Shown: in pieces, positions 2,874 to 37,387 of the stretch
Layout: each line of letters opens with the position of its first letter
Position numbering within the stretch: the first letter of the stretch is position 1
Assembly: GCA_947623745.1 (NCBI GenBank)
Contig: CANQHN010000026.1
Location: 1 to 37,586, forward strand
Direction of reading: 5' to 3'
DNA from: an uncultured Oscillospiraceae bacterium
Lineage (GTDB): Bacteria; Bacillota; Clostridia; Oscillospirales; Oscillospiraceae
DNA length: 37,586 nt
The notes under the pieces: model-generated
Database searches by the model: none
Told to the model about the DNA's origin: nothing
Seen by the model: only the letters and a program-made list of their open reading frames with translations
Made by a program: the position numbers and the translations under genes

Positions 2874-2905
2874 AAAATGCCACGACCGAAAGGCCGTGGC
2901 ATTTT
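2874..2905 (+). terminator. Hairpin with GAAA loop upstream of repA
   Basis: AAAATGCCACG (2874-2884) pairs with CGTGGCATTTT (2895-2905). The stem is capped by a short CC/GG pair and a GAAA tetraloop, with A-runs before and T-runs after. It sits just before the repA ribosome binding site (AGAGGAGG at 2912-2919). It could block readthrough into the initiator gene or act as an attenuator. It resembles the island palindromes in shape but not in stem sequence. Confidence 0.5.
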
Positions 2906-2931
2906 CGCGTCCAGAGGAGGATGCTCATACT

Positions 2932-3684
2932 ATGTCGAATTTCAACTACTTCCACGGTGGCGAGGGCGAACAATTCAGCTTTTTCCGTATTCCCCGTGAC
3001 CTGATGAAAGACGAGCGGTATCGTAGCCTGTCCGCCGAGGCCAAGTTGCTCTACGGCCTCATGCTTGACCGTATGGGTTTGTCCCGGCAAAATGGCTGGC
3101 TGGACGAGGATGACCGTGTATTCATTTTTTACACCGTTCACGAAGTCGAGGAAACGCTGTCCTGCGGCCACAACAAGGCCGTCCGGCTGCTGGCCGAGTT
3201 GGAGCAGTATGCGCTCATTGAGCGCGTCAGGCAGGGTCAGGGCAAACCGGCCAGAATCTACGTCAGGAACTTTGCCCCAGGGGAAGCCGAAGAACAGACA
3301 GACTCCGAAGAATCCGACCTCAAGAGGTCGGAAAAATCGACCTGCAGTGGTCCCCTTCCCAAACTTCAAGACTTCCCAAAAGGGGAACGTATTTATACTG
3401 ATAAGAATTATACTGATTTCATCCAGATCAATCAATCCATCAATCAGAAGCAGCTGCCGCCGACTTCTGAACAGGAGATCGATGGATGCGGCTGTCAGGA
3501 GGGAGCGCATAGTGGAGAACACGGCGGAAGCGCCGCATTTTGCGGCGCTGTCCGAGCAAGTATGTCATTTGTTAAACACAAACGACCACTTGTCAGGGGG
3601 CGTCGGCCCCCTAAAACCCCCTCCCAGCAAAATGCGTCTCACCGTGAGACGCATTTTCCGCACCCCATTGAGGTAACGACATGA
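2932..3684 (+). CDS. Replication initiator protein A (RepA_N domain), C-terminally truncated
   Basis: The N-terminal ~115 residues match the RepA_N initiator family of Firmicutes plasmids and conjugative elements: FFRIPRDLM, SAEAKLLYGLMLDRM, a winged-helix stretch with CGHNKAVRLLAELE, and ARIYVRNF. The start at 2932 is preceded by AGAGGAGG at 7-13 bases. Full-length relatives carry a further C-terminal domain. Here, after about residue 180, the sequence becomes low-quality (GCGCQEGAHSGEHGGSAAFC), runs through an island palindrome that it translates as QNASHRETHF, and stops inside the mobC start codon (ATGA overlap at 3681-3684). The C-terminal domain therefore seems deleted or frameshifted and the tail is probably not native. 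DNA binding may survive; replication function is doubtful. Confidence 0.75.
   Translation: MSNFNYFHGGEGEQFSFFRIPRDLMKDERYRSLSAEAKLLYGLMLDRMGLSRQNGWLDEDDRVFIFYTVHEVEETLSCGHNKAVRLLAELEQYALIERVRQGQGKPARIYVRNFAPGEAEEQTDSEESDLKRSEKSTCSGPLPKLQDFPKGERIYTDKNYTDFIQINQSINQKQLPPTSEQEIDGCGCQEGAHSGEHGGSAAFCGAVRASMSFVKHKRPLVRGRRPPKTPSQQNASHRETHFPHPIEVTT
3629..3657. repeat. Island palindrome, copy 1
   Basis: AAAATGCGTCTCAC, a central C, then the exact reverse complement (29 bases). It lies inside the 3' end of the truncated repA frame, 23 bases before mobC. The stem followed by T-run and the A-run before it would work as an intrinsic terminator in both directions. Confidence 0.85.
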
Positions 3685-3989
3685 GGAAACGCCTGCATTT
3701 CATTGGGCTGTGGCTTGATGACAGAGAACAGCAACAGCTTCTCAAATTGTGCGAACGATCCGGCCTGACAGCAAGCGCATTACTGCGGAAATGTATCATG
3801 GGCGAGGAAGTCAAGGAAAAACCACCTGGGGAATACGCCGCTCTGCTGCGGGAATTATCCGCTATTGGCAACAATGTGAACCAAATCGCGTATTGGGCAA
3901 ACGCAAACAAGGGTATCAACCAGAGCGAAGTCGCGGAGGCCGCCGCCCTTGTCCGGCAGGCGTGGCGAATGGTCAAGGACGGGCTGTGA
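3681..3989 (+). CDS. mobC: Plasmid mobilization relaxosome protein MobC
   Basis: This is a 102-residue MobC-family accessory protein, which helps a relaxase act at oriT by binding and opening the DNA. Visible features are a short basic N-terminus (MRKRLHFIGLWLDDRE) and a ribbon-helix-helix-like segment (LLKLCERSGLTASALLRKCI). The conserved C-terminal helix LLRELSAIGNNVNQIAYWAN is the hallmark of the family. It starts within the end of the repA frame (ATGA). The relaxase gene that normally follows is missing; 394 noncoding bases follow instead. It could act only with a relaxase supplied in trans. Confidence 0.85.
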   Translation: MRKRLHFIGLWLDDREQQQLLKLCERSGLTASALLRKCIMGEEVKEKPPGEYAALLRELSAIGNNVNQIAYWANANKGINQSEVAEAAALVRQAWRMVKDGL

Positions 3990-4020
3990 GCAGGCCCCCA
4001 CGATAGAGCGGCGCTATGCG

Positions 4021-4184
4021 GGGTATGCCCCCTTGCGGGGGGATTTTACACCGGCGTCCTTTGCCAGTCAAGGCCAAGACGAGCCGCGCCGCCGTTGGCG
4101 GCACGGGCCTTGACAGCCAAAGCCCGCCGGTAGTTTTTGCCACCAAGGGGGGCATACCCACAAAACCGGCTTGCGCCGGTTTTT
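4021..4184. other. Nested inverted repeats after mobC, possible oriT
   Basis: The 394-base gap between mobC and the tyrosine recombinase gene has no credible ORF but is densely palindromic. An outer imperfect repeat pairs GGGTATGCCCCCTTG (4021-4035) with 4144-4159. An inner repeat pairs GTCAAGGCC (4067-4075) with 4106-4114. A third, GCCGCC/GGCGGC (4088-4093 with 4097-4102), lies inside that. A terminator-like stem AAAACCGGC/GCCGGTTTT (4162-4170 with 4175-4183) plus T-run follows. Nested palindromes next to a MobC gene are what an origin of transfer looks like; no known nick consensus was recognised. The rest of the gap holds palindrome copy 2 and the recombinase leader. Confidence 0.4.
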
Positions 4185-4269
4185 CTGTTGTGGGCGGCAG
4201 TGGAGCACCCCGGAAAGGGGGAGCTGTCGCGGAGGGAGCAGGCTGGGCGCGTGTGCGCCCGACACTCAA

Positions 4270-4296
4270 AAATGCGTCTCACCGTGAGACGCATTT
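4270..4296. repeat. Island palindrome, copy 2
   Basis: AAATGCGTCTCAC, a central C, then the reverse complement (27 bases), same orientation as copy 1. It lies 87 bases upstream of the tyrosine recombinase gene and would insulate it from transcription coming from the mobC side. Confidence 0.85.
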
Positions 4297-4383
4297 CGCT
4301 TTTCTGGCGGGAGAACGGGCCGCCGGTATATTTTCCGGCCTCCGGGTAGAATAGCGGTATCTTCTATTTTACAGGAGGCAGTT

Positions 4384-5220
4384 ATGGAAAACAGAATTTC
4401 ACACTCGAATCTACAACATTTTGCCGCTTATCTGCGGCGGGAGGAAAAGAGCGCGGGCACCATCGAAAAGTATCTCCGGGACACGGCGGCCTTTGCCGCC
4501 CACATGGACGGTGCGCCTGTCACAAAGGAGGCCGTGGCCGCGTGGCGGGACGGGCTTGTAGTCCAAGGCTACGCCCCCGTCACCATCAATTCCATGGTGG
4601 CGGCGGTGAACGCCCTTCTGCGTTTTCTGGGCTGGGAGGACTGCCGGGTGAAAGCCCTGCGGCTCCAGCGGCGGGTGTTCCGGGACCAAAGCCGGGAGCT
4701 GACCCGCGAGGAATATGACCGTCTGCTGGCCGCCGCAAGCGGAAAGCCCCGGCTGGCGCTTTTGATGGAAACCGTCTGCGGCACCGGCATCCGGGTGAGC
4801 GAGGTCCGCTATATCACCGTGGAGGCGGCGAGAGAGGGCCGCGCCGAGATCGCCTTGAAAGGGAAAATCCGCGTCATCCTGCTCCCGGCCAAGCTCTGCC
4901 GGAAACTGCTGAAATACGCCCGGCAGCAAAAAACCGCCTCCGGCGAGATATTCCTCACCGGGAGCGGAAAGCCCATTTCCCGCCGCCAGATATGGGCGGA
5001 GATGAAAGCCCTGTGCGGCAAGGCCGGGGTGGAAAAGTCCAAGGTGTTCCCCCACAACCTGCGGCACCTGTTCGCCCGGACCTTTTACCGGGCGACGCGG
5101 GACATCGCCAGGCTGTCCGACGTGCTGGGGCACTCGTCCATTGAAACGACCCGCATCTACCTCATCTCCACCGGCGCGGAACACGCCCGCACCCTGGACC
5201 GGCTGGGGCTGGTGTCATAG
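4384..5220 (+). CDS. Tyrosine recombinase (XerC/D-like), probable DNA invertase
   Basis: A 278-residue tyrosine-family site-specific recombinase. The N-terminal ~95 residues form a SAM-like core-binding domain (YLRREEKSAGTIEKYLRD). The catalytic domain has the full active-site set: Arg137 (GTGIRVSEV), Lys159 (LKGKIR), His224 and Arg227 (HNLRH), His250 (LGHSS) and nucleophile Tyr259 (TTRIYLIS). The start at 4384 follows AGGAGG. The length is that of Xer and phase-variation invertases rather than of larger phage integrases. It ends 9 bases before a 13-bp inverted repeat that, with a partner at 5476, brackets a promoter in front of the SLH surface-protein gene. This suggests that it inverts this segment. 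The family is certain, the invertase role is inferred from context. Confidence 0.88.
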   Translation: MENRISHSNLQHFAAYLRREEKSAGTIEKYLRDTAAFAAHMDGAPVTKEAVAAWRDGLVVQGYAPVTINSMVAAVNALLRFLGWEDCRVKALRLQRRVFRDQSRELTREEYDRLLAAASGKPRLALLMETVCGTGIRVSEVRYITVEAAREGRAEIALKGKIRVILLPAKLCRKLLKYARQQKTASGEIFLTGSGKPISRRQIWAEMKALCGKAGVEKSKVFPHNLRHLFARTFYRATRDIARLSDVLGHSSIETTRIYLISTGAEHARTLDRLGLVS

Positions 5221-5229
5221 CGGCACATC

Positions 5230-5242
5230 ACAAAATAGTAAT
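5230..5242 (+). repeat. Left inverted repeat of the putative promoter switch
   Basis: ACAAAATAGTAAT is the exact reverse complement of 5476-5488. The outer flank (ATC before the left copy, TTGAT around the right copy) extends the match by a few bases if one gap is allowed. It is the proposed crossover site for the adjacent tyrosine recombinase. Confidence 0.75.
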
Positions 5243-5294
5243 GTTGCCCCGCCCGAAGGGGCGCTGTGATCCGCACCGTGGTTATACATAGCAA

Positions 5295-5323
5295 ATTATA
5301 CCGCCACAGCCGCGATAATTCAA
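5295..5323 (-). promoter_or_regulatory. Sigma-A promoter inside the invertible segment
   Basis: On the minus strand, TTGAAT (5323-5318), a 17-bp spacer and TATAAT (5300-5295). Two direct copies of TGTGGCGGTAT (minus strand; 5298-5308 and 5325-5335, period 27 bp) flank and overlap the core, one covering half of the -10. These may be a regulator operator or recombinase accessory sites. A short GCCCC/GGGGC stem (5246-5250 with 5258-5262) would lie in the transcribed leader. Confidence 0.7.
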
Positions 5324-5354
5324 GATACCGCCACAAAAAATGACATGAAAAACT

Positions 5355-5384
5355 GAGCCGCAAAACAGATTTTTTTCGCGGCTC
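5355..5384. terminator. Bidirectional terminator inside the invertible segment
   Basis: GAGCCGC (5355-5361) pairs with GCGGCTC (5378-5384) around an AT-rich loop. T-rich stretches follow on both strands (5396-5403 on plus; AGTTTTTC on minus). As assembled it separates the recombinase gene from the surface gene. Confidence 0.5.
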
Positions 5385-5432
5385 TGGTTTCTATACTTTT
5401 TTTGGTCCGGCAACACCTCCGAGGGCCGCGTT

Positions 5433-5452
5433 TTGCGTCTGCCTCACGGTGA
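5433..5452. repeat. Decayed copy of the island palindrome
   Basis: TTGCGTCT, two extra bases, then CTCACGGTGA keeps the left arm and centre of the island palindrome, with the right arm lost. The central G matches the orientation of copy 3 at 10241 rather than copies 1, 2 and 4. Confidence 0.45.
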
Positions 5453-5475
5453 AAAGCGGGGAGTGCGCCGACTAA

Positions 5476-5488
5476 ATTACTATTTTGT
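5476..5488 (-). repeat. Right inverted repeat of the putative promoter switch
   Basis: ATTACTATTTTGT, exact reverse complement of 5230-5242. It lies 53 bases upstream of the surface-protein start codon, so an inverted promoter would read straight into that gene. Confidence 0.75.
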
Positions 5489-5541
5489 TGATACCGGCAC
5501 GGGGTTGATACGCAATCTCTATTGTTGTGGAGGTTTTGAAT

Positions 5542-8500
5542 ATGAAGCGTCTTTTCAGACAATGGCTGGCGGGCCTGCTGTCCGTGGTGCTGCTTCTTAC
5601 CCTGCTGCCCGCGACGGCCTTGGCAGAGGAAGCCGACGGAGTGACGGGGCCGACTGCTGTGGAGCAGGTGCAGGCCCTGATCGATGAGCTGCCCGACGCG
5701 GCGGAAATTACCGTTGAGAACCGGGCGGACGTGCAGGCGCAGATCGACGCCATCGACGCGGCCATGCTGGAGCTGACCGAGGATCAGACGGCGGCGTTGG
5801 ACACCACCCGCTATGACGCGGCGGCAGCGGCCCTGCTTGCGCTGGACGCTCCTTCCGCGCTGGAACAGGTGCAGGCGCTCATTGACGCCCTGCCCAATGC
5901 GGAGGACATAACAGAGGAGAACCGTGCCGACGTGGAGGCACAGCTCAACGCCATAGACGAGGCGAAACTTGACCTTGATGACGATAAGATTGAAGCTCTG
6001 GACACCACCCGCTATCTGGCGGCCGCAGAGGCGATTCTGGCGTTGGACGGCATGGCTGGGGCGGATATACCCAAAACCATAGCGTTCCCCGAGGGTTTTG
6101 CCGGCCAAGGCAACGAGAACGACCCGTATCAGATTTCGACCAAGGAACAACTTAAGCAGTTGAGCGAACATGTGAACGAAGGGAACAACTGTAGTGGATT
6201 GTTCTTCAAGCTGATGGGAAACATCAACCTTGAGAACATGGAGTGGACGCCCATCGGGGAAAACGGCAACACCCCATTTAGCGGTACCTTTGACGGCGGC
6301 GGATACACAATAAGCGGATTGCTTATTAATCAACCGGATGTGAGTTTTCGAGGCTTGTTTGGGAAGGTTGAAAACGGCGTTATCAGGAATCTCGGAGTGA
6401 CCGGTTCCGTTACCGGAGGAAATATGGATATAGGCGGTATTGTGGGATCGTCCAAGAACAATACAATAGAGAATTGCTATAGCAATGTAACGGTCAAAGG
6501 CAATAATAATCGGGTCGGCGGTATCGTGGGAGAGTGTAATTACACTAACATCAAAAACTGCTTTAATCTTGGAAATGTACAAGGAAGTCTTTACACAGGA
6601 GGCATCACGGGACGGAGTAGTAACAACTGTAACATTACAAACTGCTTTAACCGCGGAACTGTTTCCGGAGGTAGTGACATAGGCGGCATCGTGGGAAAGA
6701 AGGATAGTAACGATAAAATTACAAACTGCTATTATCTTAACACCTGCGGCGCGGGGGGCCAAGGCACGTCAAAAACCGACGCCCAGTTTAAATCCGGCGA
6801 GGTGACGTGGCTGCTGCAAAACGGGCAGAGCGGACAGGTATGGGGACAGAAGCTTCCCGATGACAGCTACCCCGTGCTGACAAACGACGGCAGTAAAAAA
6901 GTATGCAAGGTCACCTTCGTGGCGAATGGTAACAACAATTACGCCACATGTTACACGAACCAGGGCGGAACGGTGACGCTGCCGAATAACCCCTCAAAGG
7001 CAAATTATACGTTTGAAAGATGGTCGCAAAGCAATAGCGCTTCGGGCGAGGAATTTGACGACAGCACACAGGTCACCAAGGATATGACCGTGTACGCCGT
7101 GGGGCGCAGCCATTTCGGCGGCGAGAGTAATGAAATTCCGCTGAACCAAACCTACGGCTACAGCGCGCCGATTACGGAGAATTTGGACAAGCATATGAAG
7201 TACGCCAACGGAAGTATTTCATCCGAAGGTAATTTTACGTACAAAATAGAAAGTGATGTAAATAAAACGAACGCGCGTATAGAAAGCGATAATATGCTGA
7301 ATATCCCCACAGGACTTAACGTGGGTGAGTATACGATTAAGGTTACAGCAACGGAAAAAGCTCCGCAGTATTCGCTTATGAGCGTTAACAGCTACAACAC
7401 AACGGATGTGACGCTCACGTTCAAGTTGACGATTGACAAGGCCACGCCTACGGTGACTGTGGACGCCGTGTCCGGCACATATGGCAGCGATATTACCCTC
7501 ACCGCCGGAGTGACCGCTACTGGTGTTGACAATAACAACATAAACGGCACGATGGAGTTCAAGGCCGGGGAAACCAGCCTTGGTACTGCCGCTGAAAAGG
7601 GCAGTGATGGCAAGTGGACAGTGACGGTGCTCGGTACGGATACCATCAAACAGAAAGCCATCTTTGACAACAAAGTTACCGCCAATTATGACGGGAACGC
7701 CAACATCGAAAGCGGGAGCGGCACGGGGACCGCGACCGTCGCGCCCAAGGCGATTACCTATACCGTCACCGCGGAGGGCAGGGAGTACGACGGCGGGAAA
7801 ACCGTTGACGTGACCCTAACGCCCGATGAACTTGTGGAGGGCGATGATGTGACCCTCACCGCCACCGGCACCTTGTCCGCAGCGGACGCCGCGAAGTACG
7901 AGCAGATTACCCTCACGGACGTGACCGCCAAGGGCTACGACGCTAAGTACTATAGCGTCGAGGAAAACAACCCCAATGCGGAGATACAGGACGGCGTCAC
8001 TATCAGCCGGAGAGTTGTAACGCTCACATGGAAGCTGGACGACGTCGAGACGGATGAGGTGGACTACACCGGCGAGGCCCACACAGCCACCGCCGAGGTC
8101 AGCAATAAAGTCAACAGCGACGACGTCAGAGTGACGGTGCAGGTGACACCCGAAAGCGGCGCAGAGGCGACTGAAGCTATTGCGGTCGGCTCCTATACCG
8201 CCACGGCCACAGACCTCACCGGCGCGGCCATGGGCAACTACACGCTGACAGGCTGCGCCAACACGACCTGGGCGTTCACTGTCCGTAAGGTGACGGCGTC
8301 CGCCACCACCGAGCCTGCGGCGAACGACGGCCTTACCTACTCCGGCAGGGAGCAGGCGCTGGTGACAGAGGGGAGCGCCGCCGACGGCACGGTGATGTAC
8401 GCGCTGGGGGACGAGAGCCACGCGACAGCCGAATACAGCGATACCGTCCCCACCGGCACCAACGCCGGGACCTATTACGTCTGGTGGAAGGTCAAAGGCG

Positions 8501-10152
8501 ACGAAAACCACAGCGACAGTACGCCGCAGTGCGTCATCGTCACTATCGAAAAGGCCGAGGGCACAGGCAGCGTCATCATGAAAGACTACCTCTGCGGGCA
8601 AGAGGGTGTAGAGCCTGAACCGAAGTCGGACACCAACGGCACAGCGAACGTGAAATACACCTACACGGAAAAAGGCAAAGAAAATTATAGAAATGCCAAG
8701 CCCACCACGGCGGGCGAATACACGGTCAAGGCTGAATTTGGGGCGACGAAAAACTATAACTCGTTCACGGCGACAGCGGACTTTACCATCTACCACCATT
8801 TCGATGGCTGGGAGGCGGAGGGCGACGGGTATCAAAACACCTGCGCGTGTAATACCGTCCGCTTGCAGGAAACCGGGCTTACCGAGGTTCCTGAAGGTCT
8901 AAAGGATAATGAGTCCTTGAACGATGTGGATGAAATCAAACAGGCTCTTGTGGAGAAAGTGAAGGAAGGCACTTCTATCCCGACTGAGAATACCGCCGTC
9001 TACGATGTGCGGCTCCAAATCAAGAGCGGCGGCTCCGATTGGAAGGACGTGGACGAAAAGAATTTCCCAGAGGATGGGATCACCGTCATCCTGCCCTACC
9101 CCGCGGGGACAGATTCCAGCTATACATTCACTGTCATCCACATGATTTCGACGGGTGAAAACGCCGGCGAGATGGATAAGCTGGAACCCACCAACAGCGA
9201 GGACGGCATCAGCTTTACCGTGCAAAGTCTGTCGCCCTTCTGTGTTGGCTGGACCGCCCCGCCGTCCAGTTCCTCCGGCTCCTCCAGTTCCTCCGGCTCT
9301 TCCAGCTCCTATCCCTCTTATTACAGCGTTACCGTCCCCTCCGATTTTGAGGGCGGCAGCGTAACATCCGACCGCACATCGGTGCGGCAGGGGAACAAAG
9401 TCACCCTGACGGTAAAGCCCGACGAGGGGTATCATTTCGACTCCCTCACCGTCAATGACAGAAACGGGAAGCCCGTGGAAGTCACGAATAACGGCGACGG
9501 GACTTACACCTTCACCATGCCCTACGGCCAAGTCACCGTGGATGCCGAGTTTGTGAAATGCGGCTCTCTGGACTTCACCGATCTGGACGCCAGCGCGTGG
9601 TATCACGACTACACCGATTACGTCATCGCCCACGGCTTGATGAATGGCACCGGCGGCGGCCTCTTTGCCCCGGATGGCACCGTCAACCGGGCGCAGATGG
9701 CCATGGTGCTGTGGAACATGAGCGGAAAGCCTGTGGTCAACTACTACATGACCTACTCCGATGTCAGCGAGGACTTGTGGTGCGCCGAGGCCATCCGCTG
9801 GGCCACCAGCGAGGGTATCGCGGCTGGATACGGCGGAGGGCTGTTTGGCCCCGGCGACCCCATCACCCGTGAGCAGATGGCCTCCATGATGTACCGCTAT
9901 GAGCAGAAGTACGGCGACGGCGGTTTCACCGGCGATTGGATGTACCGTCTGCCTTTTGCCGACCTGGACCAGATTTCCGATTGGGCCTTTGAAGCGGTTG
10001 CGTGGTGCAACATGAAGGGTGTTATGAGCGGCAAGGCCGATAACATCTTTGATCCCAAGGGGCCTGCCAAGCGCAGCGAGATGGCCGCAATCCTCACGCG
10101 CTATTGTGAGGTGAGCACCACAGTTGAGGCAATCGAAGATACAAAAGAATGA
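5542..10152 (+). CDS. Large secreted S-layer-homology (SLH) surface protein
   Basis: A 1536-residue protein attached to the cell wall by SLH domains. The ATG at 5542 is chosen over a GTG at 5527 because GGAGG (5529-5533) sits 8 bases before it. Order of parts: signal peptide 1-28 (LLSVVLLLTLLPATALAEE); two ~65-residue tandem helical repeats (EQVQALID..PNAEDITEENRAD) at about 38-170; GLUG-like beta-helix repeats (GGIVG..NTIENCYS) at about 245-400; an InlB-type B repeat near 456-523; several Ig-like/MBG/YDG-type repeats to about 1080; a Ser/Gly linker near 1240-1260; a further InlB-like module; three SLH domains at about 1343-1523. No enzyme motif is seen. The GLUG part is clearly more AT-rich than the rest, suggesting a mosaic origin. 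Expression is probably switched by the invertible promoter upstream. Confidence 0.9.
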   Translation: MKRLFRQWLAGLLSVVLLLTLLPATALAEEADGVTGPTAVEQVQALIDELPDAAEITVENRADVQAQIDAIDAAMLELTEDQTAALDTTRYDAAAAALLALDAPSALEQVQALIDALPNAEDITEENRADVEAQLNAIDEAKLDLDDDKIEALDTTRYLAAAEAILALDGMAGADIPKTIAFPEGFAGQGNENDPYQISTKEQLKQLSEHVNEGNNCSGLFFKLMGNINLENMEWTPIGENGNTPFSGTFDGGGYTISGLLINQPDVSFRGLFGKVENGVIRNLGVTGSVTGGNMDIGGIVGSSKNNTIENCYSNVTVKGNNNRVGGIVGECNYTNIKNCFNLGNVQGSLYTGGITGRSSNNCNITNCFNRGTVSGGSDIGGIVGKKDSNDKITNCYYLNTCGAGGQGTSKTDAQFKSGEVTWLLQNGQSGQVWGQKLPDDSYPVLTNDGSKKVCKVTFVANGNNNYATCYTNQGGTVTLPNNPSKANYTFERWSQSNSASGEEFDDSTQVTKDMTVYAVGRSHFGGESNEIPLNQTYGYSAPITENLDKHMKYANGSISSEGNFTYKIESDVNKTNARIESDNMLNIPTGLNVGEYTIKVTATEKAPQYSLMSVNSYNTTDVTLTFKLTIDKATPTVTVDAVSGTYGSDITLTAGVTATGVDNNNINGTMEFKAGETSLGTAAEKGSDGKWTVTVLGTDTIKQKAIFDNKVTANYDGNANIESGSGTGTATVAPKAITYTVTAEGREYDGGKTVDVTLTPDELVEGDDVTLTATGTLSAADAAKYEQITLTDVTAKGYDAKYYSVEENNPNAEIQDGVTISRRVVTLTWKLDDVETDEVDYTGEAHTATAEVSNKVNSDDVRVTVQVTPESGAEATEAIAVGSYTATATDLTGAAMGNYTLTGCANTTWAFTVRKVTASATTEPAANDGLTYSGREQALVTEGSAADGTVMYALGDESHATAEYSDTVPTGTNAGTYYVWWKVKGDENHSDSTPQCVIVTIEKAEGTGSVIMKDYLCGQEGVEPEPKSDTNGTANVKYTYTEKGKENYRNAKPTTAGEYTVKAEFGATKNYNSFTATADFTIYHHFDGWEAEGDGYQNTCACNTVRLQETGLTEVPEGLKDNESLNDVDEIKQALVEKVKEGTSIPTENTAVYDVRLQIKSGGSDWKDVDEKNFPEDGITVILPYPAGTDSSYTFTVIHMISTGENAGEMDKLEPTNSEDGISFTVQSLSPFCVGWTAPPSSSSGSSSSSGSSSSYPSYYSVTVPSDFEGGSVTSDRTSVRQGNKVTLTVKPDEGYHFDSLTVNDRNGKPVEVTNNGDGTYTFTMPYGQVTVDAEFVKCGSLDFTDLDASAWYHDYTDYVIAHGLMNGTGGGLFAPDGTVNRAQMAMVLWNMSGKPVVNYYMTYSDVSEDLWCAEAIRWATSEGIAAGYGGGLFGPGDPITREQMASMMYRYEQKYGDGGFTGDWMYRLPFADLDQISDWAFEAVAWCNMKGVMSGKADNIFDPKGPAKRSEMAAILTRYCEVSTTVEAIEDTKE

Positions 10153-10240: not shown

Positions 10241-10267
10241 AAATGCGTCTCACGGTGAGACGCATTT
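10241..10267. repeat. Island palindrome, copy 3 (opposite orientation)
   Basis: AAATGCGTCTCAC, central G, then the reverse complement. Copies 1, 2 and 4 have a central C, so this copy lies in the opposite orientation. It separates the SLH gene from the sigma-like gene. Confidence 0.85.
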
Positions 10268-10343: not shown

Positions 10344-10769
10344 ATGACGAGGTATGAAATATTCAATGAAATGCTGTTTGAAGCCTACTGCAAAAAAGCC
10401 ATTACCAACGCTGTAAAAAAGGAGCGGTATAAAAAAGCCGCAAGAGGGCGGATAGAACAGCCCCTCTCCACCCTGACGGACGCTATGCTCTACACGCTGG
10501 CCGCGCCAGAGGAAGAAACTGACCTCCCAGAGGAACCTTTCCAAGTTTTCCGCTTTCAGAATAGGAGCTTCCCGATTTATGACCGAAAATTGGGCGCGGC
10601 CCTGTCTTATCTCATGCCCAGGGATCGTGAGATCGTCCTGCTCTATTATTATGCTGGGTTGAAGGACAAGGCGGTTGCGCCGCTGGTACACCTGAGCCAG
10701 GCGACCGTCTGCCGGAGGCGAAATGCGGCAATCAAGCGCCTGCGGGAATTGATGGAGGCCCCTGTATGA
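10344..10769 (+). CDS. Sigma-70 region 4-type protein of conjugative transposons
   Basis: A 141-residue protein resembling the small sigma-like factors found near the recombinase end of Tn916-like and other Clostridia conjugative elements. Its C-terminal half has a region-4 helix-turn-helix: LMPRDREIVLLYYYAGLKDKAVAPLVHLSQATVCRRRNAAIKRLREL. The N-terminal half (YEIFNEMLFEAYCKKAITNAVKKERYKKA) is typical of that group and region 2 is absent. The start at 10344 follows AGGAAAGG (10323-10330). That Shine-Dalgarno is paired in a hairpin (10308-10316 with 10320-10329), hinting at translational control. It overlaps the next gene by ATGA. It probably regulates element genes, here left without the transfer module. 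Confidence 0.8.
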   Translation: MTRYEIFNEMLFEAYCKKAITNAVKKERYKKAARGRIEQPLSTLTDAMLYTLAAPEEETDLPEEPFQVFRFQNRSFPIYDRKLGAALSYLMPRDREIVLLYYYAGLKDKAVAPLVHLSQATVCRRRNAAIKRLRELMEAPV

Positions 10770-11002
10770 GACGAGTACCGTTTTCTATGATCGAAGCCGC
10801 GAAGAAATATGATGCCGAGGCCGTCGAATTTGTGTTCCGGCATTTTGAGGGCTTTATCATACACTGCTGCCAAACCGCCAGTACCGGCGGGCGGCCGTTT
10901 ATCGATGGCGACTTATACGATCACGCGCAGGCAGCCCTGTTATCCGCTATCAGCCGCTTTCAATTCCGAACCCCGCCGCCAGATTTCAAAGGCGGCGAAT
11001 AA
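10766..11002 (+). CDS. Small HTH protein of conjugative transposons (Tn916 ORF8-like)
   Basis: A 78-residue protein matching the short helix-turn-helix family that follows the sigma-like gene in Tn916-type elements (FSMIEAAKKYDAEAVEFVFRHFEGFI, then DGDLYDHAQAALLSAISRFQF). It is translationally coupled to the preceding gene through an ATGA overlap. It is probably a regulator of excision or transfer genes. An island palindrome follows 28 bases after its stop. Confidence 0.75.
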   Translation: MRRVPFSMIEAAKKYDAEAVEFVFRHFEGFIIHCCQTASTGGRPFIDGDLYDHAQAALLSAISRFQFRTPPPDFKGGE

Positions 11003-11029
11003 CCCATAAGAGACGGCTCTGCCCATCAT

Positions 11030-11062
11030 AAAAAATGCGTCTCACCGTGAGACGCATTTTTT
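11030..11062. repeat. Island palindrome, copy 4 (longest)
   Basis: The arm AAAAAATGCGTCTCAC and its exact reverse complement around a central C (33 bases). The full T6 tract makes this a textbook bidirectional terminator between the HTH gene and the serine recombinase promoter. Confidence 0.88.
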
Positions 11063-11080
11063 ACATACTCCTGCCGAAAT

Positions 11081-11109
11081 TTGACGAAATACCGGGTGTT
11101 TGATAAAAT
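11081..11109 (+). promoter_or_regulatory. Promoter of the serine recombinase gene
   Basis: TTGACG (11081-11086), 17-bp spacer, TAAAAT (11104-11109). The start codon lies 48 bases downstream of the -10, behind GGAGG. It begins 19 bases after palindrome copy 4, so the gene has its own isolated transcription unit. Confidence 0.65.
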
Positions 11110-11156
11110 AGAATTGTCACAAGGCAGGAATCGGCGGCTGTCGGAACGGAGGCAAG

Positions 11157-12791
11157 ATGAACAGACAGTCCAATATGGAAAAATGGGCGGCGCTCTATGT
11201 CCGCCTCTCCCGCGACGACGAGAACGAGGGGGACAGCAACAGCATCAGCCATCAGATCGAACTGCTCCAAAGGTACTGCAAAGAGCGGAGCATCACAAAT
11301 TGCCGGGTCTATAAAGACGACGGCTTTTCGGGGACGAGCTTCAACCGTCCCGGCTTCCAGGAGATGCTCCGGGACATCGAGGCCGGAATGGTGGATACGG
11401 TCATCGTCAAGGATATGTCCCGTTTCGGACGCAACTACCTGGAGGTGGGCATTTATACGGAGGTCCGTTTCCCGGAGATGGGAGTCCGCTTTATCGCGGT
11501 CAATGACGGCGTGGACAGCGACCGCCAGTTTGACAACGATTTCACTCCTTTTCGGAACATCATCAACGAGTGGTATGCCAAGGATACCAGCAAGAAGATA
11601 CGCTCCGTGTTCTACAACAAGGGGATGTCCGGCCAGCGCCTCTGCACACATATTCCCTATGGCTATATCAAAGGCACAGGCGGCAATCTCGCCATCGACG
11701 AGGAGACGGCCCCGGTGGTCCGGGAGATCTTCTACCTGTGCGCCGAGGGCAACGGCACGGGCAGGATCGCACGGATACTGCGGTCCCGCGGCATCCCTAC
11801 GCCGGGGACCATCGAGTTCCGGCGCACAGGCCGGACACGCAACTATCACCCCGACGACCCCTGCCGCTGGAACGAGAGCAGCATCGCAAATATCCTGGCA
11901 CAGGACGCCTATCTGGGGCGCACAACGAATTTCAAGACCACGAAGCTGTCCTATAAGAGCAGGAAAACCATTCTCAACCCGCCCGAAAAGCAAGTGACCT
12001 TTGAGAATACCCATGAGGCCATCATTGACCCGGACACCTGGGAGGCGGTGCAAAAGGCGCGCCAGCAGCGCCGCCGCCCCACCAAGATGGGGGATATGGG
12101 GATGTTCTCCGGGCTGGTGTACTGCGCGGACTGCGGCCAGAAGCTGTACCTCTGCCGGACCACCTCATGGACGCATGAGCAGGAGTGCTACAACTGCTCC
12201 ACCTATCGCGGCCACAAGGGGTGCTCCGCGCACTATATCCGCACGGTGGTGCTGGAGGCGCTTGTACTTCAGAACATCCAGCGCGTCATCGCCTACGCCC
12301 AGCTGGACGAAAAGCGGTTTGTCCAGGGTCTGTTGGAGGAAAAGAACGCCCTGCGGCACAAGGAACAGGAAACGGCAAAACGGCGGCTTGCCAGATGGGA
12401 GCGGCGCATCGCGGAGATCGACAGTATCATGCGAAAGCTCTATGAGGACAGCTACACGGGCAAGCTGAGCGACGAGCGGTTTATGAAGCTGTCCCAGGGG
12501 TACGAGGCAGAACAGGCTGGGCTGAGAGCGTCCGCTGAAGAATTGCGCGCCGCCATAGACAGCGCGCAGGAACAGGCAAAGGACGTTGAACGCTTTACCA
12601 GGCTCGTTCGGAAAAATCTCTACCCGACGGAACTGACGCCCGCGCTGTTACACTCGCTTGTGGACAAGATCGTGGTGCATGAGAAAACGAAGGACGCAGA
12701 GGGACACCGGCGCCAGAAAATCGAGATATTCTACAAATTCATCGGCGCGAGCGAGTTTTCCCCAGAGTACAGCCAATACTGCAAAAAGTAA
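11157..12791 (+). CDS. Large serine recombinase (TndX/TnpX-type integrase)
   Basis: A 544-residue serine integrase that would excise and insert the element. The resolvase domain has the nucleophile Ser18 in YVRLSRDDE and the motif VDTVIVKDMSRFGRNYLEVG. The recombinase domain follows (HIPYGYIKGTGGNLAIDEETAPVVREIF). Next come a zinc ribbon (CADCGQKLY, CYNCSTYRGHKGCSAHYI) and a coiled-coil C-terminal part (residues ~395-480). The start at 11157 has GGAGG 4 bases upstream; Met7 (11175) is a less likely alternative. It looks full length and intact. Its position at the right end of the island is normal for this class, where the gene lies next to one attachment site. Confidence 0.92.
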   Translation: MNRQSNMEKWAALYVRLSRDDENEGDSNSISHQIELLQRYCKERSITNCRVYKDDGFSGTSFNRPGFQEMLRDIEAGMVDTVIVKDMSRFGRNYLEVGIYTEVRFPEMGVRFIAVNDGVDSDRQFDNDFTPFRNIINEWYAKDTSKKIRSVFYNKGMSGQRLCTHIPYGYIKGTGGNLAIDEETAPVVREIFYLCAEGNGTGRIARILRSRGIPTPGTIEFRRTGRTRNYHPDDPCRWNESSIANILAQDAYLGRTTNFKTTKLSYKSRKTILNPPEKQVTFENTHEAIIDPDTWEAVQKARQQRRRPTKMGDMGMFSGLVYCADCGQKLYLCRTTSWTHEQECYNCSTYRGHKGCSAHYIRTVVLEALVLQNIQRVIAYAQLDEKRFVQGLLEEKNALRHKEQETAKRRLARWERRIAEIDSIMRKLYEDSYTGKLSDERFMKLSQGYEAEQAGLRASAEELRAAIDSAQEQAKDVERFTRLVRKNLYPTELTPALLHSLVDKIVVHEKTKDAEGHRRQKIEIFYKFIGASEFSPEYSQYCKK

Positions 12792-33508: not shown

Positions 33509-36500
33509 TTACATATCTTCGCGTTTCTTCTTCGGCAGGACCAGGACGGCCATCCCCGCACCAGAGCCGGCCATCAGGGTAAGCCACAGGAGCTGATGAG
33601 AATTGTCGCCAGTCTGAGGCGTGCTGTCCAGCGGCACGTCCTCATCGGGGATATCCGTCAGCGGGGGTTCCTCCTCAGGGATATCCGACAGCGGGGGCGG
33701 ATCGTCGGGGATTTCCTCCGGCGGAGTGTCCGGGTCGGGGGTGGGATCAGGGTCAGGATCGGGGTCAGGATTCGGGTCGGGATCAGGGTCCGGGTCGGGG
33801 TCGGGGTCGGGATCAGGATCAGGGTCGGGGTCAGGATCGGGGTCGGGCTCAGGCTCAGGGTCGGGATCAGGGTCAGGCGTGGGGGCGTTGGTCACAGCCA
33901 GCACACCGCTGGCGGCAATCACGCCGGGATAACTCACGGGATCCATGTCCTCTGCAAACCCGAAATAGAACAGGATGGGTTTATCCGGCAGCTCGTAGCC
34001 CTCGGGGGCTGTGGTCTCTTTCAGAATGTAGTAGTTGCCCGGCTCCATCTTCTCGGTGATGGTGAAGGTGCCGTTATCATCGGTGGTGTAGGTCCAGCCG
34101 TCCTCGGTGTAGACGCTGTACTCCTTGTCGCCGATGGTGATCTTATCCTTCTCCTCCAGCGTGGAACCCTCGGAGCGGATGATATAGTACTTGAACTCCG
34201 CGCCGGCGAGCTTTTTGGCGCTGTCCTCGCTGTCGGCCTTCTCAACGGTCATCTCATAGCTGCTGCCGCTGCCGCTGCCATAGACCTTTTGTACTGCCAA
34301 GACTTTCTCGTAGCCGCTGTCCGAGCCGGCCACGCCGTCGATGCTGGCGGAGTTGGAGACCAGCACGCCCGTGCCCTTCTTGACGATTATCGCGTTGTAG
34401 GTGATGGTCAGGGCGGTGCTGTCGGGGACCTGGAGCTTGAACTGGCCTTCCGTATTGGGATCGGGCGGGAGAATCTCGTAGTCCACGCTGTTCCCGGCGG
34501 CGTCCACCACCCGGATGGAGTTGGTCTGGATCGCAAGGTTGGTGCTCTTATCGGTCACGACCAAGTCTTCGCTGTTGGGGTCAAAGTCCGCGGCCTCGGG
34601 GTTGACCGTGAGGGTGAACTTCATCAGGTTGGCGTCCTTCTCCACCTGCTCGGCCTTCTTGGTCAGCTTGGCGGGGTAGTAGAGGACGGTGTTGCCATCA
34701 TTCCAATGGGAATTGTCCTTGTCCCTGATCCAGGCGTGGTTAGACACCGGGACCGGATCGTTGGCGGTGGCGTGGGCTTTGAGCCACTCCGGGGTGGCCT
34801 GGAGGGTGTAGTGGAACTCGAGCTCCGTCAGGTGTGGGTCCCCAAGCCTGTTGAAAATCTCAAACCCACCATCGTTCTTGAAACTCACCAGAGGTACGGA
34901 AATATTTCCTTCCTTATCTAACGGGTTAACCTCATTCCTAATACGGTCAAGCTTTATCTCACTGTTTGCATCGCTGGTCCTCGTAACGACATACAGGCTG
35001 TCCTCCACATACTTCCAACCATCGGGCAGCTTGTCGTAAAACTCCGCCTGCATACTGGCAGAATACATCGTATTAAAGTCCCAGCTATTCGTCTTGCCAA
35101 ACGCCGCGAACCAGTCTTTGGCCACGCCATTAAAGTAACCCCGGACGGTGCTGTCGACGGTACTGACGGTGACGGTGTAGTCAATGGTGCCCTCGGCCTT
35201 GTTCAGCACACCGGTCTTGTTTATGGTATCGATGTTGTTGAAGAACACCGAGTATCCGGGCCAATTTTCACTGTAGCGGAGGTTGACGTTGTTGGTGATT
35301 CCTGCCTTCAGGACTTCCGCCGGGGTCAGCTCCCACGTCCCCCTAGGCTTCCCCGTCGAATCGTCTATACCGTGAATCGTCATGGGTTCGGTTGCGGACA
35401 TATCCAGGTCGTACTCGGTGATGATGAGCCGGTCCGTCTCGTACTTCCAGCTGCCCCAGTTGCCCCACTTCTCGTGTGCCTTATCGCCTGCCTCATCGCC
35501 GAAGATGATGTACAGGCTCTTCCCGGCAAAGTAATAGAGGTAATTCTCCGGGGTGGTGAGGTCGTATCCCGGCGGAACAGTCCAGCCGTCATACGAATAG
35601 CCGGTCAGCTCCTTGGCCTCGCTCTTGAGCTCCTGTATATCCGCGATCTTCTCGGAGTCGGTGGTGGACTCGGTCCAGCCGCACCAGCCCGGCACGTCCA
35701 CGGCGCTGACCTTCAGATTCTTGACCTTGCCGCCGCTGCCGAACTCCTCGAGATACCACTTCTGGCCGTTGTACCACGTATACATATCGTCGTAGATATA
35801 GAGGGGCGTCCATTCGCCCGCCGGCACCACCGTGTAGCAGGTGTAGTGCAGGGTCTTGGAGTGCTCGTCGTAGGTCTGCTCCTTGTACACAACGCCGCGG
35901 CCGTCGGGCGTCACCACGACCTCCACGTTGCTGTCCCGGGTTTCCGTCACGGTAACATGCGTGATTTCCCCGGACTTGTCGGGATTCGGCACCTCCATCG
36001 TGCCGGTGAAGGTGGCCTCGTTCAGCGCGTTGCCCCAGAACGTATTGACGGAGCCCTCCATGTACTCGAACGCGTACCGATAGGTGACGGTCAGCTCGTC
36101 GTCCACTTTCAGGGGGAGGGCCGAACCCTTGAGCTTGATCTGGAACGCCTTGTCATCCGGATGACTGGGGTCGCCCTCTCCCTCTTCCAGATCGTAATCC
36201 TCGCCAGCCGTCAGGGCGTTACTAGTCCCGTCGGCCCGCTTGAGCGTGACGGTGACATCGCCCTTCTTCACCAGAGCGAACGAATTGGTTTGGGGCGGGG
36301 TGAGCACGTCGGAGATCAGCGCCTGCTGGAGCTCGCCATAGTCCACCTTGACGGTCACGGTGTAGTCCAGGACGCCGCCGACCCTGCCGTCCTCGTACTC
36401 CGTGAACTTGCCGGTCTTCTCCATGCTGACCCGGGGCTGGTCCACCATCTCAAAGGTGAAGTCCTGGCCCGCGCCGCCGAAGTTGACGCTGCCGCCGGTG

Positions 36501-37387
36501 CTGCCCGGGTTGGCCTGGGCCGTGGCTTCCATGTCAAAGTTCAGGGTGGCGTTTTCGACCTCCTTCAATTTCTCCACGCCATCAGGGGAGAGCACGATGG
36601 TCAGCAGACCGCTGGCGCTGACGGAATAGGTACCGATCTGGACCTCCTTCCCGTTGATCGTGACGGTCAAAGTCTCCCCGTCCTTGGGCTCCACTGTAAA
36701 GAACTCCGGGAGCTGATAGGTCAGGGTCTCACTGCTGGGGAACTGGCCGCCCTGGGCGCCGCCCTCTTTGAACACCAGACTGATGTTGTAGTCCGCACCG
36801 ACCTGCAGCTTGTCGACTTCGTCCCCCTTGCTGTCGGTGATTATGACTTCCGCCAGGAAGTCCGCAAGCTCACTGGAGGTGTCCTCGCCGGGGGCGGCCT
36901 CTTTGGAATAGCAGTCAATCGTGTGAGTGTGCTCGGGGATCCCGCAGATCAGGGGGGTCTCGTAGCAGTCGCCGCTGTGGACATGACCCGTACTCTCCGT
37001 CTGGCCGCAAACGAGCTGCTTAAAGCAGTCGCCGCTGTGGGTGTGGCCCTCGCTCTCGGGCATGGTACACGTCAGGACTTCATCCTCGTCATAGCATTCT
37101 TCAGTGTGCTGGTGGCCCGTGCTCTCCTCTTGACCACAGAGCGGCGTTTCACTGGTTTTGTAGCACTCATCGGTGTGGGAGTGAGCGCCCTCGCCCTCCT
37201 TGATCTCGCAGATCAGTTCGGCGGGGCCATAGCATTCTGCGGAATGAGTGTGCTCCTCCTGCTCACACACAAGAGCGCGGCCGGCCACATCGTCTGCGGC
37301 AAAGGCCGAAACGCCTATGATACTCGTGCAGAGAGAGAGTATAAGCACAACAGCCATGACTTTTTGTATCGTATTCCGACCCTTCAT
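33509..37387 (-). CDS. Wall-anchored adhesin with His/Cys repeats, SpaA-like domain and Asp-Pro stalk
   Basis: A 1292-residue secreted surface protein. Signal peptide about 1-31 (VMAVVLILSLCTSIIGVSAFAADD). Residues about 39-160 hold six modules of the form C-x-x-x-E, a Gly-rich gap, HxH, then C-Y/F, such as CEQEEHTHSAECY. The middle (about 170-1040) resembles adhesive isopeptide-type domains (YTVTVKVDYGELQQALISDVLTPP). A SpaA/CnaB-like domain lies at about 1046-1160 (KADSEDSAKKLAGAEFKYY..NYYILKETTAPEGYEL). An Asp-Pro repeat spans about 1167-1222. The end has TPQTGDN, a hydrophobic helix and KKKRED, a sorting signal with Thr in place of the Leu of LPxTG. Start at 37387 behind AGGAGAGG. No sortase gene is in the window. 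Ligand unknown. Confidence 0.9.
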   Translation of the reverse strand: MKGRNTIQKVMAVVLILSLCTSIIGVSAFAADDVAGRALVCEQEEHTHSAECYGPAELICEIKEGEGAHSHTDECYKTSETPLCGQEESTGHQHTEECYDEDEVLTCTMPESEGHTHSGDCFKQLVCGQTESTGHVHSGDCYETPLICGIPEHTHTIDCYSKEAAPGEDTSSELADFLAEVIITDSKGDEVDKLQVGADYNISLVFKEGGAQGGQFPSSETLTYQLPEFFTVEPKDGETLTVTINGKEVQIGTYSVSASGLLTIVLSPDGVEKLKEVENATLNFDMEATAQANPGSTGGSVNFGGAGQDFTFEMVDQPRVSMEKTGKFTEYEDGRVGGVLDYTVTVKVDYGELQQALISDVLTPPQTNSFALVKKGDVTVTLKRADGTSNALTAGEDYDLEEGEGDPSHPDDKAFQIKLKGSALPLKVDDELTVTYRYAFEYMEGSVNTFWGNALNEATFTGTMEVPNPDKSGEITHVTVTETRDSNVEVVVTPDGRGVVYKEQTYDEHSKTLHYTCYTVVPAGEWTPLYIYDDMYTWYNGQKWYLEEFGSGGKVKNLKVSAVDVPGWCGWTESTTDSEKIADIQELKSEAKELTGYSYDGWTVPPGYDLTTPENYLYYFAGKSLYIIFGDEAGDKAHEKWGNWGSWKYETDRLIITEYDLDMSATEPMTIHGIDDSTGKPRGTWELTPAEVLKAGITNNVNLRYSENWPGYSVFFNNIDTINKTGVLNKAEGTIDYTVTVSTVDSTVRGYFNGVAKDWFAAFGKTNSWDFNTMYSASMQAEFYDKLPDGWKYVEDSLYVVTRTSDANSEIKLDRIRNEVNPLDKEGNISVPLVSFKNDGGFEIFNRLGDPHLTELEFHYTLQATPEWLKAHATANDPVPVSNHAWIRDKDNSHWNDGNTVLYYPAKLTKKAEQVEKDANLMKFTLTVNPEAADFDPNSEDLVVTDKSTNLAIQTNSIRVVDAAGNSVDYEILPPDPNTEGQFKLQVPDSTALTITYNAIIVKKGTGVLVSNSASIDGVAGSDSGYEKVLAVQKVYGSGSGSSYEMTVEKADSEDSAKKLAGAEFKYYIIRSEGSTLEEKDKITIGDKEYSVYTEDGWTYTTDDNGTFTITEKMEPGNYYILKETTAPEGYELPDKPILFYFGFAEDMDPVSYPGVIAASGVLAVTNAPTPDPDPDPEPEPDPDPDPDPDPDPDPDPDPDPDPDPNPDPDPDPDPTPDPDTPPEEIPDDPPPLSDIPEEEPPLTDIPDEDVPLDSTPQTGDNSHQLLWLTLMAGSGAGMAVLVLPKKKREDM
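33731..33878 (-). repeat. Asp-Pro codon repeat (6-bp unit) in the adhesin stalk
   Basis: Near-perfect tandem GA(T/C)CC(T/C/G) hexamers encode about 25 Asp-Pro dipeptides with a few Glu, Asn and Thr variants. On the plus strand this is a G-rich tract (GGGTCGGGATCAGGG style). Such tracts change length by slippage, so stalk length may vary between strains; assembly may also collapse it. Confidence 0.85.

Follow-up and report, generated by a model that had tools for sequence, protein, structure and literature searches.

In the Bacteroidales, invertible promoters lie between inverted repeats and control surface genes. Two other switches are described in passages of PMC2784873. In E. coli fim, the mRNA of fimE differs with the orientation of the switch, and this pushes switching toward OFF. 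In C. difficile cwpV, an invertible piece of 195 bp, with 21-bp inverted repeats, precedes a large wall protein; the switch is mostly OFF, with ~5% of cells expressing the protein, and RecV is an Xer-type tyrosine recombinase (passages of PMC2784873). The same passages place the cwpV promoter outside the invertible piece and recV elsewhere in the genome, and an earlier note on the DNA studied here, which spoke of tyrosine recombinases inverting promoters of surface genes in C. difficile, needs correcting for this wall-protein switch. For the hCom2 community, parts of PMC11892184 report inverton group 139 and invertase group 35, with 33 invertons, 32 of them from Clostridia, linked to nearby tyrosine-type recombinases; these parts assign Bacteroidales recombinases to other invertase groups and discuss Bacteroidales motifs.

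Our window, the whole stretch of DNA that was analysed, is a complete contig (C26) of 37586 bases from a 3.05-Mb assembly of 76 contigs. Along it, a tyrosine recombinase gene is followed by a 259-bp repeat-bounded stretch and then by the gene for an SLH surface protein. This arrangement is very probably a phase-variation switch, fim-like and not cwpV-like, in which a recombinase-linked invertible promoter, OFF here, controls an adhesin-type protein. The features are as follows.

4384 to 5220, plus strand: tyrosine recombinase of 278 aa, the probable invertase of the switch (Phage_integrase PF00589, E 2e-24; Phage_int_SAM_1)
5230 to 5242, plus strand: left inverted repeat and putative crossover site, ACAAAATAGTAAT, a perfect 13-bp arm (repeat pair kept in 67/81 loci)
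5230 to 5488, no strand: predicted invertible segment, in the OFF orientation in the assembly, 259 bp with the arms and 233 nt between them (homologous segments are inverted among relatives)
5295 to 5323, minus strand: sigma-70-type promoter, TTGAAT-N17-TATAAT, facing the recombinase (consensus match; the -10 stops 65 bp short of the faced repeat's outer edge)
5355 to 5384, minus strand: hairpin upstream of the promoter, a probable bidirectional terminator, stronger on the minus strand (terminator scans and shuffle z; kept in the window's closest relatives in an alignment judged by eye)
5476 to 5488, minus strand: right inverted repeat and putative crossover site, a perfect 13-bp arm
5529 to 5533, plus strand: ribosome-binding site GGAGG (from the sequence)
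5542 to 10152, plus strand: surface protein of 1536 aa, counted from ATG 5542, with GLUG, Flg_new, YDG and InlB-repeat domains and SLH near the C-terminus

The perfect 13-bp inverted repeats enclosing 233 bp that had been noted earlier were borne out at 5230-5242 and 5476-5488, where the pair has an inverted-repeat score of 13. Allowing up to two mismatches, the repeat motif has three matches in the window, two of which are the arms, when 0.07 would be expected; together with the shuffle comparison of arm scores given below, this argues that the arms are not a product of chance. The one strong promoter that the earlier note had seen pointing away from the surface gene is likewise present: the segment (5230-5488) holds a single sigma-70-type site, on the minus strand at 5323-5295, and it has that direction. 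A scan of 3500-7000 gave a single plus-strand promoter-like site, at 4368-4397, the start of the recombinase gene. When the segment is flipped computationally, the promoter moves to 5395-5423 on the plus strand, where 119 bp separate the end of the -10 from the ATG at 5542, in agreement with the earlier reading that the locus is OFF and that inversion would bring the promoter to about 120 bp upstream of the start codon. The locus thus has the inverted repeats of a promoter inverton flanking a promoter (assigned by consensus match) upstream of a gene, and among homologous loci the segment is found in both orientations between fixed flanks.

The adjoining recombinase has the Phage_integrase catalytic domain and the R-K-H-R-H-Y set of an Xer-type recombinase or DNA invertase. 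All six of the residues previously claimed are there as candidates, R137, K161, H224, R227, H250, and Y259, located by motif position and by alignment to the XerC-like chain 4a8e_A, and we take their role to be catalytic. The closest solved structures are XerC-like or XerA. Curated NCBI model cut-offs were not reached (the best, NF040815, gave 131.9 bits against 220), and the tyrosine-type DNA invertase models NF007370 and NF007371 scored 29.5 and 24.3 bits against cut-offs of 221 and 222. Since the protein falls below the cut-offs of all named families that it matched (XerA/XerC/XerD and DNA invertases), we file it under none of them.

The open frame of the surface gene begins at 5527 (1541 aa) and, counted from the ATG at 5542 behind GGAGG, yields exactly the 1536 residues reported before. 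SLH was detected with an E of 4.8e-37; it matches three separate stretches, among which residues 1410-1452 of 1541 score best, and the N-terminus resembles a signal peptide by eye, giving the protein the SLH domains and, on that visual judgement, the secretion signal of an SLH surface protein. The 5´ part of the gene (5660-6049) contains two direct 189-nt copies that are 74% alike. Elsewhere in the window, the minus strand at 33509-37387 encodes a second very large surface-type protein, of 1292 aa with a SpaA domain, that starts 199 bp from the contig end; neither a repeat pair nor a recombinase was seen by eye in those 199 bp.

Scanning one genome per species, we found 215 recombinase relatives and retained the best 80 (L032-L111), mostly from Oscillospiraceae. 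An inverted-repeat pair (score ≥9) lies behind the recombinase in 67/81 loci, i.e., among these best 80 of 215 plus the window, with the pairs at L064 and L096 placed by hand and several of the 67 weak (score 9-9.5). The constant adjacency of repeat pair and recombinase gives good support to the neighbouring recombinase as the probable catalyst of inversion. Seven of the remaining 14 loci have too little sequence before the contig end, and seven have no scored pair (L034, L044, L049, L076, L084, L089, and L105); in four of the latter the contig stops after at most 380 bp, in L076 a 13-bp pair lies farther along, and in L034 and L084 no repeat pair was found. With the arms included, the segments span 246-304 bp in 63/67 loci, the others measuring 188, 229, 452, and 462 bp. 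Among the 69 loci that were testable, with at least 350 bp downstream, an arm score of at least 12 was reached by 56 real regions and by 0/345 single-base shuffles, and a score of at least 10 by 58 real regions and 7/345 shuffles. When left and right sides were taken from different loci, a score of at least 10 was also obtained in 106/414 cases, since the sites are related between loci as well. Many sites resemble the core sites of tyrosine recombinases, with ACAAAAT and ATTTTGT arms and a short spacer between them.

When 400 genomes of the family were searched at the DNA level, 5150-5560 had a match in 52 (the window's own included), mostly over the recombinase 3´ end and the left repeat only. 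Within the genus, the recombinase is matched at E ≤1e-60 in 33/64 genomes, again counting the window's own. A plasmid scan gave one close relative, Pusillibacter faecalis pMM59_01 (65%), which has the same gene order, an annotated SLH protein, and a repeat pair, and for which the promoter rule described below gave no orientation call. Scanning viral contigs with the recombinase gave no relative, and thus no second source of flipped copies there. At L095 and L103, at least three copies of the crossover site can be seen by eye 0-300 bp past the recombinase, and a 78-bp piece is inverted between the two (92%). These loci are perhaps multi-site switches.

Homologous segments are inverted between relatives. 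L058 and L064 carry the segment in opposite orientations (91% over 304 bp) with both flanks collinear; between L043 and L035 (85% over 272 bp) and between L041 and L050 (88% over 467 bp) it is also inverted, the common left flank being the end of the recombinase. Further opposite-orientation pairs are present in alignments of downstream regions. A check proposed earlier, looking for the inverted orientation in any related genome, was therefore positive, for example in L058/L064 and L043/L035. The window and its two nearest relatives, L032 and L033, have one orientation, OFF. Among the relatives examined, none carried the window's own segment in flipped form; the closest opposite copy, in L043, aligns in the reverse direction at 86% over an alignable 57 bp. 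Judging by its homologues, the window's own segment presumably flips too.

The placement of the promoter recurs as well. With no limit set on the place of the promoter, the -10 of the best one ends 60-69 bp away from the faced repeat's outer edge in 46/67 loci, compared with ~3 expected from an even spread over some 230 places (an expectation that does not come from shuffles). The consensus match and this recurrent spacing suggest that the promoter is active. The inversion of homologous segments and the recurrent geometry together support the ON/OFF switch by promoter inversion that the earlier note had proposed.

Orientation was called from a consensus promoter with its -10 limited to 52-85 bp from the faced repeat. 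By this rule, 48 of the 67 loci are OFF (promoter facing the recombinase), 12 are ON, and 7 are unclear; the count covers L032-L111 and the window, L001-L031 and some genus loci having been left out as repeated contigs, judged by their equal lengths (for example, L008 is L043, and L004 is L040). The ON calls include L070, from the cultured relative Intestinimonas butyriciproducens An565. Applied to 1340 single-base-shuffled segments, the rule called 340, of which 180 were OFF and 160 ON, and left 1000 unclear. Because shuffles are called both ways about equally, the direction is not forced by the rule, and some individual calls may be due to chance. The excess of OFF over ON is significant by a two-sided binomial test (3e-6) on loci that are not fully independent, as in L051, L085, and L100, which are in one MAG and are identical in repeats and promoter. 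A tree of the recombinases, for which the bootstrap is not settled, requires at least 11 changes of orientation; shuffled labels gave a mean of 11.2, and 301/500 shuffles were as low. With as many changes as in shuffled labels, orientation follows no phylogeny and switches faster than the genes diverge.

Three further close recombinases, with 61, 61, and 51% identity, are encoded in the window's genome. One, on contig C7, is accompanied by a perfect 14-bp repeat pair and a promoter called ON (score 12.4 vs 9.5) before genes for an ABC-2 permease and an ABC ATPase. Another, on C49, was called OFF (11.6 vs 9.9) before a 1427-aa secreted-looking ORF, and the contig of the third stops 89 bp past the recombinase match. 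One genome thus holds both called states, at different loci.

Among the 80 retained relatives, contig ends crowd behind the recombinase match, with 15/80 in the first 500 bp (L104 inside the gene) and 14/80 in the next 4500 bp. Contig ends are also somewhat crowded just upstream of the recombinase (7/80 in the nearest 500 bp, 17/80 in the 4500 bp beyond), which inversion does not account for. The contigs of L073, L081, L077, and L095 in this set, and of L145, L011, and L031 among further loci, terminate at the final one or two bases of a site, as does that of the further locus L140 by position only, and in pattern searches three site-ending contigs had the site at their first or last base. Ends on the repeat are expected if the reads held both orientations, given how assemblers behave where reads continue into two orientations, and strain mixtures or paralogues could produce them too. 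Searches with the exact repeat pattern for the partner contigs of broken loci, evidently in three assemblies, found none, returning only the contig-end copy and one paralogue. Inversion of the segment may account for the tendency of assemblies to break behind these recombinases.

The segment also contains a hairpin, at 5355-5384. On the minus strand, it has 11 pairs followed by AGTTTTTCAT, with a free energy of -21.3 kcal/mol (z -3.4; 0/200 shuffles as good), whereas plus-strand folding scores less well (z -1.65; 14/200 shuffles as good). A looser scan accepted it both ways, with 7 pairs and a T-rich tail on the plus strand. The earlier note had a terminator facing the surface gene; the chief direction is instead that of the promoter itself, away from the surface gene (z -3.4), and what stands of the claim is a weaker predicted activity on the plus strand (z -1.65). 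Across the 60 orientation-called loci, keeping only the best hairpin per segment and direction, we found terminator-like hairpins that act with the promoter in 32 loci and against it in 34, compared with ~6 and ~5 in single-base shuffles. The best promoter-direction hairpin is wholly upstream of the usual promoter place in 27/32 and lies otherwise in 5/32. These numbers suggest that an insulating terminator, in many cases able to work in either direction, is a common part of the segment.

The presence in the segment of a hairpin flanked by T-rich tails would also suit a cwpV-like mechanism, proposed for C. difficile in passages of PMC2784873, by which inversion moves a terminator and not a promoter, and transcription from the upstream recombinase promoter is stopped in one orientation only. 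We consider this very unlikely here. A near-consensus promoter sits inside the segment, 46/67 loci share its distance to the faced repeat, and the promoter-like site nearest the surface gene is within the segment and not outside it. Moreover, with terminator-like hairpins in both directions across the family (32 and 34 of 60, shuffles ~6 and ~5), flipping would change termination little.

Mobile-element genes in the vicinity (RepA_N, MobC/NikA-like, and a large serine recombinase) bring to mind a different role for the repeats, as attachment sites for integration and excision of a mobile cassette. The repeats are inverted and not direct, however, and segments are inverted in place between relatives, making this reading exceedingly improbable. 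It is also very unlikely that the locus is a fossil, a switch that formerly inverted and is now locked OFF in this strain. The OFF orientation common to the window, L032, and L033 would fit a fossil, as would a 13-bp pair that is shorter than many others in the family, but the arms match perfectly, the recombinase frame is intact with its six candidate catalytic residues, promoter and hairpin are both present, and L043, a relative with the same site type, is in the other orientation.

We therefore favor a working invertible promoter. In this model, the recombinase encoded at 4384-5220 would recognize and pair the sites in both repeats and invert the 233-bp segment. In the OFF state, the promoter would fire toward the recombinase 3´ end, leaving the surface gene without a facing promoter, and the bidirectional terminator in the segment would limit read-through. 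In the ON state, the promoter would read out via the right repeat, and the mRNA for the SLH protein would start ~110-120 nt upstream of the ATG. A tentative extension is that the switch regulates itself: the OFF promoter could drive antisense RNA into the 3´ end of the recombinase gene, lowering recombinase levels and stabilizing OFF; in the ON orientation this brake would be lifted, so that the locus flips back. Such self-regulation would account for the promoter-to-recombinase geometry and the 48:12 excess of OFF across the cassette family, both of which fit the hypothesis of antisense feedback. The OFF excess makes orientation-dependent feedback testable.

The recombinase, switch, and surface gene form a module with a palindrome at each end.

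4270 to 4296, no strand: 27-bp palindrome marking the module on its left (repeated without change at 3630, 10241, and 11033)
10241 to 10267, no strand: 27-bp palindrome, right end of the module (identical copy)

In all, four identical copies (3630-3656, 4270-4296, 10241-10267, and 11033-11059) lie around the MobC, recombinase-switch-surface, and sigma-factor modules, and no other match with up to two mismatches was found in the 3.05-Mb assembly. The palindrome could be a terminator common to these modules, or it could mark a boundary between modules of a mobile element. Around the switch, 2896-3989 and 10344-12791 hold genes for RepA_N, NikA/MobC-like, sigma-70 region 4, and large serine recombinase (DUF4368) proteins; the best NCBIfam model for the last is CcrB, far below its cut-off. 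The presence of these genes suggests that the switch cassette rides on a mobilizable element.

What lies downstream of the switch varies among relatives. We collected 41 large plus-strand ORFs (≥600 aa, starting at most 1900 bp from the right repeat, the window's included). InlB B-repeat (15), SLH (14), and Flg_new (10) domains were the most frequent, with fewer cadherin-like, SpaA, LRR, and Fn3 domains. At some loci, the first genes are instead for treble-clef (DUF4379) proteins, degenerate tyrosine-recombinase-like proteins, or, in convergent orientation, a MerR-type protein. A crude ORF listing in this GC-rich DNA, where many antisense frames are probably spurious, had hinted that a MerR gene generally separates switch and surface gene; this was rejected, as a profile search matched L035, L039, and L047 only. 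In these three loci a convergent MerR-family gene lies to the right of the segment. It is followed by a large ORF in L035 and L039, and the contig of L047 stops before any large ORF. In L035 and L039, the simple link from promoter to gene fails, since the MerR gene intervenes, and an ON promoter would transcribe antisense across it. In one clade (L058, L064, L075, L079, L080, L096, and L109), the gene directly behind the switch has its start in common with a tyrosine-recombinase-like protein (checked with Pfam for L058 and L064). The L064 copy, by eye, has two units in which the HxLR motif is altered, and it lacks an evident catalytic tyrosine. The invertible promoter would here control a degenerate recombinase, perhaps a regulator.

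Our observations point to one recurring cassette, comprising a recombinase, an inverted-repeat promoter, and a surface gene, for phase variation of very large and diverse wall proteins in Oscillospiraceae and neighbouring gut Clostridia. If so, clonal populations of these commensals would be mixtures of surface types, with a bearing on adhesion, phage escape, and immune recognition. Searches of the open-licence literature on invertible promoters, invertons, and phase variation in Oscillospiraceae or Ruminococcaceae found no description of this cassette. The text of PMC10939037 has no occurrence of Firmicutes, Oscillospir, Clostridia, SLH, or Flavonifractor, and "SLH" and "S-layer" are absent from the main text of PMC11892184. 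Broader open-licence searches gave inverton surveys and C. difficile papers, one of which, PMC11892184, may include this family as its group 139. Within the reach of these searches, the wide cassette family around the window is undescribed.

The switch in the window resembles the invertible promoters of Bacteroidales in having a promoter between inverted repeats and surface genes as targets, and differs from them in promoter type and phylum. Inverton group 139 with invertase group 35 is probably the closest published set, probably of the same kind and perhaps of the same family (PMC11892184). With cwpV, as described in passages of PMC2784873, the window shares inverted repeats before a large wall protein, an Xer-type tyrosine recombinase, and a predominance of OFF; in contrast to cwpV, its promoter is inside the segment and its recombinase gene adjoins it. 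These last two features are also those of E. coli fim (FimB/FimE, with the invertible fimA promoter), which is like the window in having adjoining recombinase gene(s), inverted repeats, a promoter inside, and control of a surface structure. Relative to fim, the window has one recombinase in view, an SLH wall protein as its target, and a place in the Clostridia.
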